Of a stretch of DNA of 64,000 nt, positions 31,967 to 47,867 are shown one piece after another (the first letter of the stretch is position 1; every line of letters starts with the position of its first letter). Under the pieces are notes generated by a model. The model worked only from the letters and a program-made list of their open reading frames with translations, was not told the DNA's origin and ran no database searches. The translations under genes and the position numbers were made by a program. This DNA comes from Terrimonas pollutisoli (GTDB lineage: Bacteria > Bacteroidota > Bacteroidia > Chitinophagales > Chitinophagaceae), in the NCBI RefSeq assembly GCF_029360765.1, contig NZ_JARKNA010000002.1, positions 493,334-557,333 of the forward strand, in the 5' to 3' direction.

Positions 31967-33436
31967 ATGAACTATACTAAAATATCAAAACTTGCAGTCT
32001 GCACTTTGCTTGTTATAGCAACAGGTTTTAGCTCCTGCAAAAAATACATTAACCTGTCGCCGGAAGATGCTACCTATGACCAGGTGTTTTGGCAGACCGG
32101 CGCCAATGTAGAAAAAGCTGTTTCGGGAGCCTATGGCCTGTTAAGAGATGCGCTCAAAGATTCCCGCAGCCATTTTATTTTTGGCGACTTTACGACCGAT
32201 GAGTTTGTAAGAGGGAGTGATTATTGGAACTATGCTGATCTGTCCTTTGATGGTAGAAATCATTTCAGCTATGCACCTTATCTTGAAGGCTCCGTTTGGG
32301 ACTGGACCCGCTTTTACGGCTTGATTAATCAATGCCATTTGATTGTAGAGAATACACCAAAAATAGCTGATGCAAAATTTGGGGGTGGCAAAGAAGCCAA
32401 AAATCAATTATTAGGAGAAGGGCATTTTTTGAGGGCTTATGCTTATTTCTATATGACAAGGGTATGGGGCGATCCGGTGTTGACCAAAGAATCGTTGAAA
32501 GACCCGCTAAATATTCAACCTCAAGCCCGGTCGACGGAAACAGAAGTGCTTGATTATTGTATTGAAGACCTTTTAAAAGCTGCCGATCTGATGGGCCTTA
32601 ATCATGAAAGGATTAGAGCCGATAAAGGTGCTGCCTGGGCTCTGCTGGCTCATGTATATGCCTGGAAACATGATTATGCCAATGCAAAGAAGTATTGCGA
32701 TAAAGTGATTACCGAAGGTGGTTATTCGCTAGAGCCAATTGATAATTATGGAGACATTTGGAAAGGTAGCAGCAATGAAAGCATTTTTGAATTGTTCATG
32801 CAATATGACCAGGTAAGTAATGAAGCAAGTTCCGGGTTTTTTAATGCTTTCTTATACGAACCTATTGTTAAGAAAGGCATCAACACCGCCTGGGCTGTAA
32901 ACAATGATTACTCAAATCCTTTATTTGGCACAGGGCAGGATGATCGTCCTGGTAAAATATTTACCGCAGGACAGGGAACCAACAAGCTGATGCTTATTAA
33001 GTACGCAAACATCAACTACTATGATCCCAACAGGCCTAATACTTATGTGGTAGACAATAATCTTGTTTTATTACGTCTGGCAGATATTCATCTGCTGAAA
33101 GCAGAAGCAAGTGTGAAATTGAATGATGAAAGCACAGCGAGAGATGAAGTTAATATTATTCGCCAGAGAGCAAATGCCAGCCTGCTTCTCCCCGCAGATG
33201 TTTGCAATATGGATACGGTTTTAAATGAGAGAAGAAAAGAGTTATATGGAGAAGGTTGTATTTTCTATGATAACATCAGGATGATACTGACGAACCCTGA
33301 CTACGCCAATCAATTGCCCGATCCTTATAGCGCTGAAAGGGTAGCGAAAAAGGGTTATTACTGGCCGTTGAGTATGAGAAGCCTGCTTCCACAAGACCAA
33401 TTGCTTACTCAAAACGAATGGTGGAAAAATCATTAA
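31967..33436 (+). CDS. SusD/RagB-family outer-membrane lipoprotein
   Basis: SCKKYINLSPEDATYDQVFWQT; FLRAYAYFYMTRVWGDPVL; RRKELYGEG. Confidence 0.95.
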   Translation: MNYTKISKLAVCTLLVIATGFSSCKKYINLSPEDATYDQVFWQTGANVEKAVSGAYGLLRDALKDSRSHFIFGDFTTDEFVRGSDYWNYADLSFDGRNHFSYAPYLEGSVWDWTRFYGLINQCHLIVENTPKIADAKFGGGKEAKNQLLGEGHFLRAYAYFYMTRVWGDPVLTKESLKDPLNIQPQARSTETEVLDYCIEDLLKAADLMGLNHERIRADKGAAWALLAHVYAWKHDYANAKKYCDKVITEGGYSLEPIDNYGDIWKGSSNESIFELFMQYDQVSNEASSGFFNAFLYEPIVKKGINTAWAVNNDYSNPLFGTGQDDRPGKIFTAGQGTNKLMLIKYANINYYDPNRPNTYVVDNNLVLLRLADIHLLKAEASVKLNDESTARDEVNIIRQRANASLLLPADVCNMDTVLNERRKELYGEGCIFYDNIRMILTNPDYANQLPDPYSAERVAKKGYYWPLSMRSLLPQDQLLTQNEWWKNH

Positions 33437-33453: not shown

Positions 33454-33553
33454 ATGAAATGCGTCATGAAATTTTCCGGGTAAATCATTCCCAATCACTG
33501 ATAAAAATTTTGTGGCAAATTCCATCTGATCAAAAATTTAAAAAAATATACAG
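33454..33553 (+). other. Leader element copy A (degenerate) of a three-copy structured motif
   Basis: ATGAAATGCGTCATGAAATTTT...AAAATTTTGTGGCAAATTCCATCTGATC-A-rich; aligns with 33554 and 46275 copies. Confidence 0.7.
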
Positions 33554-33641
33554 ATGAAATGAGCCATGATAATGCTTATCACCAACCGGGATGATTATTT
33601 GGCGAATTCCATTTGGCCAAAAAACAATAAAAAATAAACAA
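33554..33641 (+). other. Leader element copy B directly before fasciclin-protein start
   Basis: ATGAAATGAGCC...TTTGGCGAATTCCATTTGGCC-A-rich-ATG. Confidence 0.8.
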
Positions 33642-34349
33642 ATGAAAAAGATATTATCAGGTCTTATGGCTGTCATGATGGTTGCCTTGGTTCTGTTTTC
33701 CTGTAAAAAAAGGGACGACTATTTAACTGGCGGCAGCAGGCATAGTGCAAAATTTAACGTTACTACCTACGACTTTCTGAAAGGGCAGGCCAGTGGCCTC
33801 TTTGATACTTTACTTTTGTTGGTAGATAAAACCGGGTTAAAAGATAAACTTAATCAGCAAGGAGTGAGTTTTTTTGCTCCCACTGACTATGCAATCAATA
33901 ACTACCTGAACCAAAGGGCTCTCCAGGAGCAAAACATTGATCCGAAAAGAAAATGGACATTGGATTCAATGATCAAATATGAATTGCCAAAATTCACAGA
34001 TTCATTAGATACCTATATTGTAGGTCAAACATTGGATTATAATAATCTCACCAATAATGGAGCTATTTATCCCACAAAAAAGGCCGGGACAGAAGCCGTT
34101 GTATCATATGAAGAGATCACACCTGATAATTCCGAGTATATTAGGTTGGGAGGAAATCCAAATGTATCCAGCAACCCCCGGCTTATTTACTACACTTTTT
34201 TAAAAGGGCCTTTAACCCCACCCGTTATTGCATCTGAAATAACTCCTGCCGGGGGCACCAGGGTAAGAGTACAAACATCAGGTATTCAAACTAACACAGG
34301 GATGGTTCATGTTTTGATTAATCAGCATATCCTGTTCTTCAGACAATAA
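33642..34349 (+). CDS. Fasciclin-domain lipoprotein
   Basis: MKKILSGLMAVMMVALVLFSCKK; FDTLLLLVDKTGLKDKLNQQGVSFFAPTDYAINNYL. Confidence 0.8.
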   Translation: MKKILSGLMAVMMVALVLFSCKKRDDYLTGGSRHSAKFNVTTYDFLKGQASGLFDTLLLLVDKTGLKDKLNQQGVSFFAPTDYAINNYLNQRALQEQNIDPKRKWTLDSMIKYELPKFTDSLDTYIVGQTLDYNNLTNNGAIYPTKKAGTEAVVSYEEITPDNSEYIRLGGNPNVSSNPRLIYYTFLKGPLTPPVIASEITPAGGTRVRVQTSGIQTNTGMVHVLINQHILFFRQ

Positions 34350-42980: not shown

Positions 42981-45900
42981 ATGAAAAAGAAGGCTTGCTT
43001 TATTAGCCCACCCTTACAGAAGGGCTGGCTCAAAACACTGCTGCTCATGAAACTCTCAGCTTTATTGATCCTGGCGACTGCGTTACAGGTTTCGGCCAAA
43101 ACTTTTTCGCAGGACAAACTGGATGTTGATTTTAAAAAAACAAAACTGGCCGCCGCTTTAAAGGAAGTAGAGAAGAAAACCGATTACCGGTTTGCCTTTA
43201 GTAATCTCGTATTGTCCGATAATATGAAGGTTACACTAAAAGCGAAGGACATTACGGTAGAAAATCTTTTAAACCGTTTGCTGGACAATACAGGTTTGTC
43301 GTACAGTTTAATGGACAATAACCTTGTTGTTATTACAAAAACTGACAGGATAGTTTATGCTGATATCACAGTAAGGGGCAAGGTGACAGACAACAGTGGA
43401 GGGCCGCTGGCCAATGTAAGTGTTACCGCTGGCGATAAAAGCGGTACTACCACCAATGAACAAGGCGAATATGTGATTACAGTAGATGAAAATGCAACGC
43501 TAAGTTTTAGTTATGTGGGCTATACATCGCAGCAGGTGCAGGTAAGCAAGCGAAACGTTATCAATATTGAATTGGCACAGCTTTCAAGCAATCTGACAGA
43601 TGTGGTTGTAGTTGGTTATGGTACACAAAAACGAAGTGATCTTACCGGTTCAATCGCAACACTTTCCTCCAAAGCCTATAAAGATCAACCTGTGTTAAAT
43701 GTTTCATCTGCTTTACAAGGCAGAGTGGCCGGGGTGTCTGTTACCAATAATTCCGGTGCACCGGGTGGAGCAGTTAAAATCCGCATACGTGGTGCCAATT
43801 CTGTAAACGCCAGCAACGATCCGCTTTATGTCGTTGATGGTATCGCTTTGAGCAGCATAGGACTGGCAGATATCAACGTGAATGATATTGAATCGATGGA
43901 GGTTTTGAAAGATGCTTCAGCCACGGCCGTATACGGATCAAGAGGAGCTAATGGCGTTATTCTTATTACCACCAGGAGTGGCAGATCAGGCGACCCTAAA
44001 ATTGAGTATCATGGTTTCATGAGCTTTAACAGGCCTATGAAAAAATATGATTTGATGGATGCGGTAACGTATGCCAAAGTCGCCAATGTTACAGCAGGAG
44101 TTAATGTTTTTCCGGATCCCAATTCATTTGCAGGTAAAAGCACTGACTGGCAAGGTTTAATATTTAATAACTCCCTTACGCATAGCCACCAGCTTTCTTT
44201 AGCAGGCGGAACAGAAAATACGAAATATTATGTGTCCGGATTCTATGTTGATCAGGAAGGATTATTGATCAACAGTAATCAGAAAAAATTTGGTCTCCGT
44301 TCAAACGTGGATATAAAATTGAGTAAACGGATAAATTTTGGCGTCCACATCTATGCAGGTCGCCTTAATTCCCACAATAACACTGACATTGGTTACAAGG
44401 GCAACCCTGTTATGGGTGCTGTTACCTGGGCGCCAACAGAGCCTGCGTATGATGCACCTGGACAATATAATCGGTTTGGAATATCCCCTATATGGGCAAA
44501 CCCTTTTTTGGCTATTAGCGAAAGAAATGAAAATAATTTCTCCAACGTTGGAATTTTCAACGGAAAATTAAAATATACAATCACTGACTGGTTAACATTG
44601 AATGTTAATGCAGGATTGGATATGTTTATTTCCAAAAGTGCTTTTTTGAATAATGAATGGATCAGCCCCGGCAATAATGCATCAGGACAAAGCTCAGCTG
44701 AAAGCTACACATTTCAAAACAGCAATAACCTTACTTTCCATAAAACATTCGGCCAACATGATCTTACAGCCACGGCCGTAATGGAAGCCACTTCCAATAG
44801 GTACTCCAGTTTTAATGCTTCAGGTTCCGGATTGGCCTCTTTATCTAATGGATATAACAACCTCGGTTTAAATGCCTCCCAGGCTATTTCGTCGGGTTAT
44901 TCCAACTGGTCGTTATTATCTTATATGGGGCGAATTGCTTACAGCTATAATGACAAATACCTTTTAACCGCAACCGTAAGGCGTGATGGATCTTCCAAAT
45001 TCCATGCAAATAACCGCTGGAGCAATTTTCCTTCATTTAGTGCAGGATGGAAACTATCTAATGAAAAACTCATCGAAGACTTACACATTTTTTCAAATCT
45101 TAAACTGAGAGCCGGATGGGGTATCACCGGTAATCAGGCGATTGGACCATATAGTACACTTGGTTTATTGACGAGCACGACTTTTTCCTATGGTACTCCA
45201 ACATTGTACCAGGCCTATACACTGGGTAATCCCGCTACTCCTGATGTAAAATGGGAGACTTCAAAGCAAATGAATATTGGTCTGGATGCAGGGATATTGA
45301 ATGGCAGGCTTAATATCAGTGCTGATTATTACAATAAGAACACCCGTGATCTGCTCCTTTTTACAAGGATAGCCAATTACGACGGCGGTGGCTCGTATCT
45401 GAAAAATATCGGAAAGGTAAACAACAAGGGTTTCGAATTAATGATAGAAGGAACCCCTCTGAAAGGCAAGAGTTTAACATGGTCTGCAGGTTTTAATATA
45501 TCAACCAATCAAAACAAAGTGGTGAGCCTTGGAGCAGATTCAATGCCTGCGAGACCATATATAGGCGGGGGACTTATAACAAACAATATACAGGTAGTAA
45601 GAACAGGACAGCCACTTGGCGCATTTTACCTGATTCCGTGGGAAGGTGTTTACCAGGCTGATAAAGGAGATTATAAGGCAGGAGACGGCAGATACACGGA
45701 TGTAAGTGGAAACAGCTCAATTGGATTTGAGGACAGGGTGATTTCGGGAACTGCAACTCCTAAATTTCAATGGGGTTTTAATAATAGCCTGACATATAAA
45801 AATTTTGACTTGAACGTTTTTGTGCAGGGTGCTCACGGCCATAAAATATTTAATGCCACGTACGCAGCTACCGCAGTGCCTACCAGTGATGTGAAATTTA

Positions 45901-46253
45901 TAAACCTGGCAGAAGCCGCAAACTATTGGACTCCGTCAAATACAACATCCACCTGGGCAAACCCCGGCAGTAAAAATAAAAGTTGGGTTGAGTCCACACA
46001 ATTTTTACAAGACGGCAGTTATGTACGGTTGAAAAACGTAAGCTTATCATATACGATCGGCAAAAATCTGCTCAGACTGGCATCTGCAAAAATCTATATC
46101 AGTGCCCAAAACGTAGCAACTATAACCGATTACAAAGGATTTGACCCGGAAGCCACTTCAACATCGGCAAGCAGTGATGCTGATGCAGGTATTGATGTAG
46201 GTGCTTATCCTTCTCCTAAAACAATTACTATTGGCTTGCAATTAAAATTTTAA
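42981..46253 (+). CDS. SusC/RagA-family TonB-dependent transporter with STN domain (second PUL)
   Basis: VRGKVTDNSGGPLANVSVTAGDKSGTTTNEQGEY; LTDVVVVGYGTQKRSDLTGSIA. Confidence 0.95.
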   Translation: MKKKACFISPPLQKGWLKTLLLMKLSALLILATALQVSAKTFSQDKLDVDFKKTKLAAALKEVEKKTDYRFAFSNLVLSDNMKVTLKAKDITVENLLNRLLDNTGLSYSLMDNNLVVITKTDRIVYADITVRGKVTDNSGGPLANVSVTAGDKSGTTTNEQGEYVITVDENATLSFSYVGYTSQQVQVSKRNVINIELAQLSSNLTDVVVVGYGTQKRSDLTGSIATLSSKAYKDQPVLNVSSALQGRVAGVSVTNNSGAPGGAVKIRIRGANSVNASNDPLYVVDGIALSSIGLADINVNDIESMEVLKDASATAVYGSRGANGVILITTRSGRSGDPKIEYHGFMSFNRPMKKYDLMDAVTYAKVANVTAGVNVFPDPNSFAGKSTDWQGLIFNNSLTHSHQLSLAGGTENTKYYVSGFYVDQEGLLINSNQKKFGLRSNVDIKLSKRINFGVHIYAGRLNSHNNTDIGYKGNPVMGAVTWAPTEPAYDAPGQYNRFGISPIWANPFLAISERNENNFSNVGIFNGKLKYTITDWLTLNVNAGLDMFISKSAFLNNEWISPGNNASGQSSAESYTFQNSNNLTFHKTFGQHDLTATAVMEATSNRYSSFNASGSGLASLSNGYNNLGLNASQAISSGYSNWSLLSYMGRIAYSYNDKYLLTATVRRDGSSKFHANNRWSNFPSFSAGWKLSNEKLIEDLHIFSNLKLRAGWGITGNQAIGPYSTLGLLTSTTFSYGTPTLYQAYTLGNPATPDVKWETSKQMNIGLDAGILNGRLNISADYYNKNTRDLLLFTRIANYDGGGSYLKNIGKVNNKGFELMIEGTPLKGKSLTWSAGFNISTNQNKVVSLGADSMPARPYIGGGLITNNIQVVRTGQPLGAFYLIPWEGVYQADKGDYKAGDGRYTDVSGNSSIGFEDRVISGTATPKFQWGFNNSLTYKNFDLNVFVQGAHGHKIFNATYAATAVPTSDVKFINLAEAANYWTPSNTTSTWANPGSKNKSWVESTQFLQDGSYVRLKNVSLSYTIGKNLLRLASAKIYISAQNVATITDYKGFDPEATSTSASSDADAGIDVGAYPSPKTITIGLQLKF

Positions 46254-46274: not shown

Positions 46275-46370
46275 ATGAAATGAGCCGTAAAATTTTCATT
46301 TTAATCACACAGGGGAATGAAAATTTTTATGGCGAATTCCATTTGGCCCCAAAAAATAAAAAATATACAA
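46275..46370 (+). other. Leader element copy C directly before susD2 start
   Basis: ATGAAATGAGCCGTAAAATTTTCATT...AATGAAAATTTTTATGGCGAATTCCATTTGGCCCC-A-rich-ATG. Confidence 0.8.
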
Positions 46371-47867
46371 ATGAAAAGAACGAATAAATATTATTTGGGT
46401 TGGCTGACACTGGCAATATTTGCCATGTCGTGCAGCAAAAGCTTCCTGGAGGAAACACCGAAAGGAAGTATAACACCTGTAAGCTTTTATAAGACATCCA
46501 GGGATCTCGAAATGGCGTCAGCGGCACTGGCCCTGCAGTTTAACGGGGCTTTTAATCAGCTGGGAGGTGCATTTTATGGGGCTGATGACATTACCTCAAA
46601 AAGAGCAGGAAATAAAATAGAGTTTTCTGACTTTGATATTTTTAATGCTAACTCATCCAATGGCAGGATGAATAACTGGTGGAATTATTTTTATGCAACC
46701 ATCAAATCTGCGAATGCACTTATTCAAAATTATACGAACGCAACAGAGGCAACAGAAGAGCAAAGAAATAATGCTGCCGGACAGGCTTATTTTATGCGTG
46801 CCATTAGCTATTTCTATTTAACAAGAACCTGGGGTGAAGTGCCCATGCCTACAGAACCCACTGTTGATGATAACAGGCCCAATGCTAAGGTTGAAGATCT
46901 ATACAATCTGATCGTGGCCGATTTACAAAAGGCGGAAACCATGCTGCCGGATCATTGGGATGGAGTGAGGAGACAAAATGGTGTTGATGTTCTGCCAACA
47001 AAAGGTTCTGCAAAGGCGCTGCTAGCCAATGTCTACCTGACGATGGCAGGTTGGCCACTTAAACAAACGGATAAGTATGCAATAGCGGCGGCAAAAGCAA
47101 AAGAAGTGATCGATGGCAAAGCAACCTGGGGGTATAACCTGGTGACGAATTATGCTGATATATGGAAGATTGGAAACAAATATAATAATGAGGCAGTTTT
47201 TGCCTGTTACTTTAACAATGATGTGCCTGCATGGAACTGGGAAAATGGGAATATGATGGCGCCTAATCCTTTTGCTCCGGATTATGAAGAAGGAGGATGG
47301 GATGATGGGTTCGGGGAAATTTCATTCTATAATAAATTTCCTGCCGGACCAAGAAAAGACGCCACCTATCAAAAGGATTATTATGTAAAGAATGATCCCA
47401 ATAATGTAGTCACCTGGCAGGGAACATTACAAAAACATCCTTACTTTCTTAAATACCGCGATGACCATAGCTACGACTGGTCAATACATAAGGCCAATGA
47501 CTGGTGGAGCAGTGCAACCACATTCATTCTCCGTTATTCAGAAGTATTGCTGACGTATGCGGAAGCAAAAGCTATGTCGTCTACTCCTGATGCCAGCGCC
47601 TATGATGCTATAAACCAGGTAAGACAAAGAGCCGGAATACTCCCCTTGTTACCCGGATTATCTCAAACAGCTTTTAGAGATTCCGTAATAGCAGAAAGGG
47701 GATGGGAATTTGCAGCCGAATGCGGGATAAGGTGGTTTGACCTGATAAGAACAGAAACAGTGCAAAAGGCCAATTCAGTAAGAGATGCATCAGAAGTGAG
47801 CCTGGCAAATCAACCCAGCGATGCAAATCATACATATTATTGGGCGCCCATTCCGGCCATTAAATAA
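46371..47867 (+). CDS. SusD/RagB-family outer-membrane lipoprotein (second PUL)
   Basis: FAMSCSKSFLEETPKGSITPVSFYKT; AYFMRAISYFYLTRTWGEVP; ERGWEFAAECGIRWFDLIR. Confidence 0.95.
   Translation: MKRTNKYYLGWLTLAIFAMSCSKSFLEETPKGSITPVSFYKTSRDLEMASAALALQFNGAFNQLGGAFYGADDITSKRAGNKIEFSDFDIFNANSSNGRMNNWWNYFYATIKSANALIQNYTNATEATEEQRNNAAGQAYFMRAISYFYLTRTWGEVPMPTEPTVDDNRPNAKVEDLYNLIVADLQKAETMLPDHWDGVRRQNGVDVLPTKGSAKALLANVYLTMAGWPLKQTDKYAIAAAKAKEVIDGKATWGYNLVTNYADIWKIGNKYNNEAVFACYFNNDVPAWNWENGNMMAPNPFAPDYEEGGWDDGFGEISFYNKFPAGPRKDATYQKDYYVKNDPNNVVTWQGTLQKHPYFLKYRDDHSYDWSIHKANDWWSSATTFILRYSEVLLTYAEAKAMSSTPDASAYDAINQVRQRAGILPLLPGLSQTAFRDSVIAERGWEFAAECGIRWFDLIRTETVQKANSVRDASEVSLANQPSDANHTYYWAPIPAIK

Follow-up and report, generated by a model that had tools for sequence, protein, structure and literature searches.

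The two tandem units that precede a fasciclin-domain lipoprotein gene in Terrimonas pollutisoli belong to a family of dispersed, non-coding, hairpin-forming DNA elements of ~75-140 bp, and this family probably represents a miniature mobile element that inserts right after the ATGAAA with which a gene starts. In the window, as we call the whole stretch of 64,000 nucleotides that was analysed, both units were present where the initial annotation had placed them (33454-33553 and 33554-33641, with the fasciclin start ATG at 33642), as were the boxes it had described, which read ATGAAATG[C/A]G[T/C]CATGA on the 5' side and TGGC[A/G]AATTCCAT[C/T]TG on the 3' side. Each box has a third site in the window (46275 and 46330) upstream of a SusD-like gene. 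Copies A and B sit between a SusD gene (31967-33436) and the fasciclin gene, copy A starting 17 nt downstream of the SusD stop, and the ATGAAA at 33554-33559 is at once the right end of copy A and the left end of copy B (Table 1).

Table 1. Copies of the element in the window, their guides and pairing partners, and the genes that begin at their right ends.
Feature	Position	Strand	Remarks
Copy A	33454..33559	+	Left ATGAAA to right ATGAAA; covariance-model match 85.2 bits, E 2.8e-11
Guide of copy A, CATCTG	33523..33528	+	Complementary to CAGATG at 33551-33556
CAGATG	33551..33556	+	Copy A right end, including first ATG of copy B; guide partner
Copy B	33554..33647	+	Ends in the starting ATGAAA of the fasciclin gene; 104.5 bits, E 8e-15
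Guide of copy B, CATTTG	33610..33615	+	Complementary to CAAATG at 33639-33644
CAAATG	33639..33644	+	Copy B right end; holds the fasciclin start codon
Fasciclin-domain lipoprotein gene	33642..34349	+	Downstream of copies A and B; Pfam PF02469, E 9e-5
Third copy	46275..46376	+	Between SusC (42981-46253) and SusD; guide CATTTG 46340-46345, partner CAAATG 46368-46373
SusD gene	46371..47867	+	Begins at the right ATGAAA of the third copy; Pfam PF14322 and PF07980

Every unit is bounded by ATGAAA at both sides, the motif being found at the right end of virtually all copies and at the left end of nearly all. The order of parts is ATGAAA, a foot, a variable hairpin, a second foot, TTCCAT-NNN (the guide), an A-rich leader and N'N'N'-ATGAAA, which is the start of the downstream gene; the constant parts are ATGAAA, the two feet, TTCCATNNNGG, ~20-25 A-rich bases and N'N'N'ATGAAA, and the hairpin is highly variable in length and sequence. 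The feet form classes that are mostly still paired (TGAGCC/GGCGAA, CGCCC/GGGCG, CGTCC/GGTAAG, CCGGGC/GCGGGG and CCGAGC/GCGAGG). The constancy of the feet in our alignment A3 is by selection, copies from other genomes having been found partly via exact patterns, in which N and N'N'N' were kept free. The left end (ATGAAATGAGCC) and the right end (A-rich bases plus N'N'N'ATGAAA) are related directly and not as inverted repeats. The Met-Lys-stop mini-ORF reported by the initial annotation does open copy B (ATG-AAA-TGA), but copy A opens MKCVMKFSG-stop, so that the mini-ORF is not common to the two, and it is not retained in other copy classes either.

Two further kinds of sequence were noticed inside some copies. 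Short G+C-rich palindromes (CCTGTCTGCCGACAGG, TCCCGATAGCTATCGGGA and TCCGCCGCGGCGGA) lie within copies L075, L078, L111, L121, L110, L126, L130, L139, L219 and L223-L226, where they often take the place of part of the hairpin or guide and seem to be another small repeat inserting into the element. A block of ~45 bp (ACAAAGTTCGATGAGGCCAAAATAAAATAACAAATGAACTCATCA) stands between hairpin and guide in L129, L132, L133, L142 and L217 and has the appearance of a right half from a related unit whose end motif differs.

The initial annotation had argued for a conserved structure from hairpin arms that differ in sequence and yet pair. Folded singly, the window copies did no better than shuffles (z -0.05 and -1.4), and the argument therefore needed more copies. 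Across 41 non-redundant copies, the mean MFE z was -2.4 and the arms of each copy paired at -10.3 kcal/mol, compared with -7.1 +/- 0.34 for arms exchanged between copies; beyond the foot the values were -3.1 for own and -1.3 for swapped arms, and covariation of the arms was thus borne out in this set.

A further covariation connects the 3' box with the gene start. TTCCATNTG, the sequence of this box, is the complement of the CANATG in which the downstream start codon lies; N covaries, four pair types being seen at this position. CATNNN and N'N'N'ATG were fully paired, G.U counted, in 59 of 72 own copies and in 44 of 48 from other genomes, and none of 2000 permutations paired equally well; other covarying guide/start pairs were CATTCG/CGAATG, CATCCG/CGGATG and CATCAG/CTGGTG, the last with a GTG start. 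The left ATGAAA is a further partner of TTCCAT; all classes have a single A.C mismatch here, which corresponds to a G.T wobble on the other strand. Read from the sequence, the minus strand has ATGGAA ahead of the hairpin, and this would pair with TTTCAT at either end, one of the pairs being G.T. The match of the guide extension to the bases before the left ATGAAA was not above permutation, for which reason the left-side NNN was rejected as a recognised target, and hairpin folding energy gave no clear preference for either strand (p = 0.12).

A search of the whole genome with GAATTCCATTTG, one mismatch allowed, returned 88 sites, the reversed control 18, and full units were recognised when the sites were inspected. 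A covariance model, as proposed by the initial annotation but built here from 14 copies, gave 88 matches at E<=0.1 across the genome (6.3 Mb), and these represent ~85 distinct copies. There are pairs of copies that are 98-99% alike and have unrelated flanks, and the spread is therefore recent. Other genomes of the family (Chitinophagaceae) carry 0-17 copies each, as lower bounds given the limited number of candidates scored per genome, and several orders of Bacteroidota have copies at low number, with exact matches in Chitinophagaceae, Prolixibacteraceae, Draconibacterium, Aquimarina, Chryseobacterium, Kordia and Moheibacter. No copies were found in the viral contigs searched, and phages, plasmids and E. 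coli yielded no genuine match. That no described motif was known for the units agrees with Rfam, where no family matched at gathering thresholds or at E<=1; in the openly accessible literature we did not find start-codon inserts in Bacteroidota described, which is no proof of novelty.

Comparison of filled and empty sites directly supports insertion at this target. The icd gene carries the element in genome G393 and lacks it in eight congeners with the same leader. At a susD gene, G393 has the element (...AATTACTGAAAT-ATGAAA-TGAGCC) and G281 an empty site (...AATTACTGCAAT-ATGAAA-AACAGA), where the native leader is almost identical to that of G393 up to ATGAAA. In a separate case susD is filled in G096 and empty in G176, and the element at the aspartokinase gene of the own genome is absent from 29 other genomes of the family. 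One of the protein queries used was extrapolated beyond residue 45; it only located orthologues, which were then read from their loci. From these sites it follows that the left leader and its ATGAAA are native, and that the element supplied the hairpin together with the right leader and the second ATGAAA. As to retention at the same gene, three congeners have the element at rfbA and two lineages have it at bL25, but it is not retained at icd, susD or aspartokinase. The members of tandem pairs (copies A and B of the window; L110; L134) have one ATGAAA in common, as would be expected from an element inserting at another's start motif. At a TPR gene, several species of the genus in which icd was compared retain only the right half (GGCTAAAAAACAATAAATATTTTCAG before ATGAAA), which may be read as a decayed element whose leader would still be in use. 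Loci L228-L236 at this gene present a full element, a hairpin-less element (ATGAATCGACCATCTGACTTAAAAACAAATAATATTTTCAGATGAAA) and the leader only, that is, all decay stages at one start.

We propose that the element lands directly after a starting ATGAAA on the top strand, equivalently beside TTTCAT on the other, and that the inserted DNA would comprise foot-hairpin-foot-TTCCATNNN-A-rich leader-N'N'N'ATGAAA. Its last six bases would recreate ATGAAA, so the gene would keep its start codon, now behind the leader of the element, and the native start in front would be turned into a short upstream ORF. TTCCAT (ATGGAA on the other strand) could pair with ATGAAA/TTTCAT at either end, and the NNN extension would pair only with the N'N'N' of the element itself. 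Movement would most likely take place in trans.

Leaving tandem pairs aside, the right end coincides with an ORF start in ~72 of the 83 own copies, whereas 29% (30/105) are gene starts among the ATGAAA sites that are either non-coding or at a start in 319 kb of this genome, an expectation that rests on crude gene calling (p ~3e-28). An earlier count in the window alone had given about one half (13 against 14), and 72/83 is still far above this; these whole-genome gene statistics are estimates from stretches of genome. The preference for gene starts is stronger than the six-base target predicts and in this respect counts against the insertion model. Many copies lie 10-50 nt past the stop of an upstream gene, and the genes behind them are unrelated (SusD, fasciclin, lipoproteins, aspartokinase, rfbF, rfbA, icd, bL25, dehydrogenases and others). 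The initial annotation had suggested control of surface glycan-binding lipoproteins, and a unit does stand before a susD gene as well; however, genes of all kinds are preceded by copies, only 9 of 60 PF07980 SusD genes are, a share above the genome average but not a rule, and the element is absent at the same genes in congeners. The element is not a dedicated regulator of polysaccharide loci. A mobile repeat scattered regardless of gene context had been named as the finding that would speak against such control: the element is mobile and indifferent to gene function, but it is confined to gene starts. One minus-strand copy (L061, 1501-1595) precedes a 28-codon ORF (MKKLKAFLMENQQAASQPKNSKFSCGKI), possibly a small peptide gene.

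With the guide in place, predicted openness of the start codon was 0.30, compared with 0.49 when the guide was scrambled and 0.47 at ordinary starts, which makes a modest lowering of translation by start masking plausible. These same values would suit a cis-acting translational switch, in which TTCCATNNN pairs either with the upstream ATGAAA, leaving the start free, or with the downstream start, masking it, ribosomes on the mini-ORF tip the balance and the unit spreads as useful regulation. By sequence the two pairings exclude each other, the guide covaries with the bases on the start side, gene starts are favoured, the susD share exceeds the genome average, and the bL25 leader keeps the element in two lineages with a compensatory change at N. 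We nevertheless consider this explanation unlikely, as the downstream genes have no common function, the element is missing at the same gene in congeners, its inner region changes between congeners at a rate equal to or above that of flank and gene, decayed copies are reduced to the leader, and the mini-ORF varies between classes. Known riboswitch and attenuator leaders are likewise structured and have two exclusive pairings, one of them over the start codon, but they differ from the element in that it has no common gene function, is gained and lost between congeners and belongs to no Rfam family.

Simple insertion after ATGAAA does not explain the similarity of 7-13 bp before ATGAAA on both sides at a few sites (icd of G393, L159, L095 and Pinibacter rfbA), and this counts against the model we prefer. 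Such extra similarity at the first three of these sites, together with the A-rich right part, would agree with a SINE-like retroposition, in which a reverse transcriptase, of group II intron type or another, copies an RNA of the unit into the start site and leaves target duplications that vary in length; we retain this as a rival on account of the 13 bp that icd of G393 repeats beyond ATGAAA. It seems quite improbable all the same: flank similarity was not above permutation in the own genome and only slightly above elsewhere, ATGAAA is the sole repeat at susD of G393, where native and right leaders differ right up to the motif, and the right leader and N'N'N' track the element subfamily. Target duplication was rejected as a general feature on the same permutation result in the own genome. 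Programmed bypassing, as in yeast mitochondria and T4 gene 60, with a start at the first ATG and a ribosome hop from AAA to AAA, draws on the identical ATGAAA on either side of a hairpin insert and on the TGA that directly follows the first AAA in the most frequent class, but is scarcely credible, since the second ATG, preceded by an A-rich leader of Bacteroidota type, is a start codon in its own right, so that no bypass is needed, and no stop follows AAA in other foot classes. The byps of yeast mitochondria are mobile short hairpin inserts flanked by repeated codons and harmless to the gene product; the element resembles them in being a short hairpin insert between repeated codons that leaves the product unharmed, and differs in that its downstream copy has its own start codon, with no ribosome hop required, and in residing in bacterial chromosomes.

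As to how insertion after ATGAAA might proceed, the guide-plus-hairpin layout, the fixed target, the lack of terminal inverted repeats and the lack, at most sites, of duplication beyond the motif tentatively suggest single-strand chemistry of the IS200/IS605 type (HuH Y1 transposase). In these elements, a guide located 5' of the foot of a hairpin pairs with the target and with the other end (PMC6006769). IS200/IS605 elements and their non-autonomous derivatives share with the element the lack of terminal inverted repeats and a single orientation beside a fixed short target, and on its minus strand the element too has a guide 5' of the hairpin foot that would be able to pair with the target and the other end. 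It differs in that a single hairpin serves both ends, in guide pairing over 6 + 3 bases that always includes a G.T (A.C if read on the top strand), in a six-base target at gene starts and in that no linked transposase gene was found; membership in IS200/IS605 is not claimed. REPs and REPINs of TnpA_REP (RAYT) are also small, non-coding, dispersed hairpin repeats of bacterial genomes, but the element lacks their GT[AG]G foot, its foot context being ATGAAATGA/GAATTCCAT or ATGAAAC../TTCCAT, is found at start codons and not in extragenic DNA at large, and has no copies flanking the Y1 genes of the own genome. MITEs of DDE transposons are equally short, dispersed and non-autonomous; unlike them, the element lacks terminal inverted repeats, no inverted pair having been found across copies A and B, and duplicates no target sequence besides ATGAAA.

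A search of the own genome did not find a gene mobilising the element, and no longer autonomous copies emerged from left-half orphans, right-half orphans or full matches. The genome has 12 Y1 genes, none with ends of the element; the element model gave no significant match near them (best 21.9 bits, E 0.07), and these Y1/RAYT transposases were rejected as carriers, having other palindromes at their ends. The RAYT-like Y1 genes (L206, L207, L208, L209, L210 and L211) have flanking palindromes of their own, for example GCGGTTGGTGAAAAACACCAACC, unlike the element, and the IS200-like ones (L200-L203 and L205), some of which are broken, are flanked by palindromes of the GGCTCCGTAGGAGCC or TCCCGTAGGGAC type.

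Most mobile elements break their target gene, whereas insertion after ATGAAA would take over the start codon, leave the protein unchanged and replace the leader that governs translation. In Bacteroidota, start sites are mostly chosen without the usual ribosome-binding site, and the element, which numbers ~85 copies in a single genome and has relatives in several orders, may be a natural agent of 5'-leader turnover in this phylum. It predicts a mobilising enzyme still to be found, and its covarying guide/start pairs are ready compensatory mutants for tests of mobility and translation; it is also a warning that leader motifs before susD genes need not regulate polysaccharide loci. More speculatively, and we regard this as rather doubtful, the element could stand for a phylum-wide mobile class that targets the translation start itself, its guide pairing with the start region and its insertion rewriting the leader, so that dozens of unrelated genes would be handed one structured, start-masking leader and a mobile maker of regulons would result. 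At bL25 (L150, L154 and L177) the element stands behind a homologous upstream region in two lineages, with the N pair changed from G/C to T/A, and to judge from the sequence this copy is the best candidate for an element adopted for host use.
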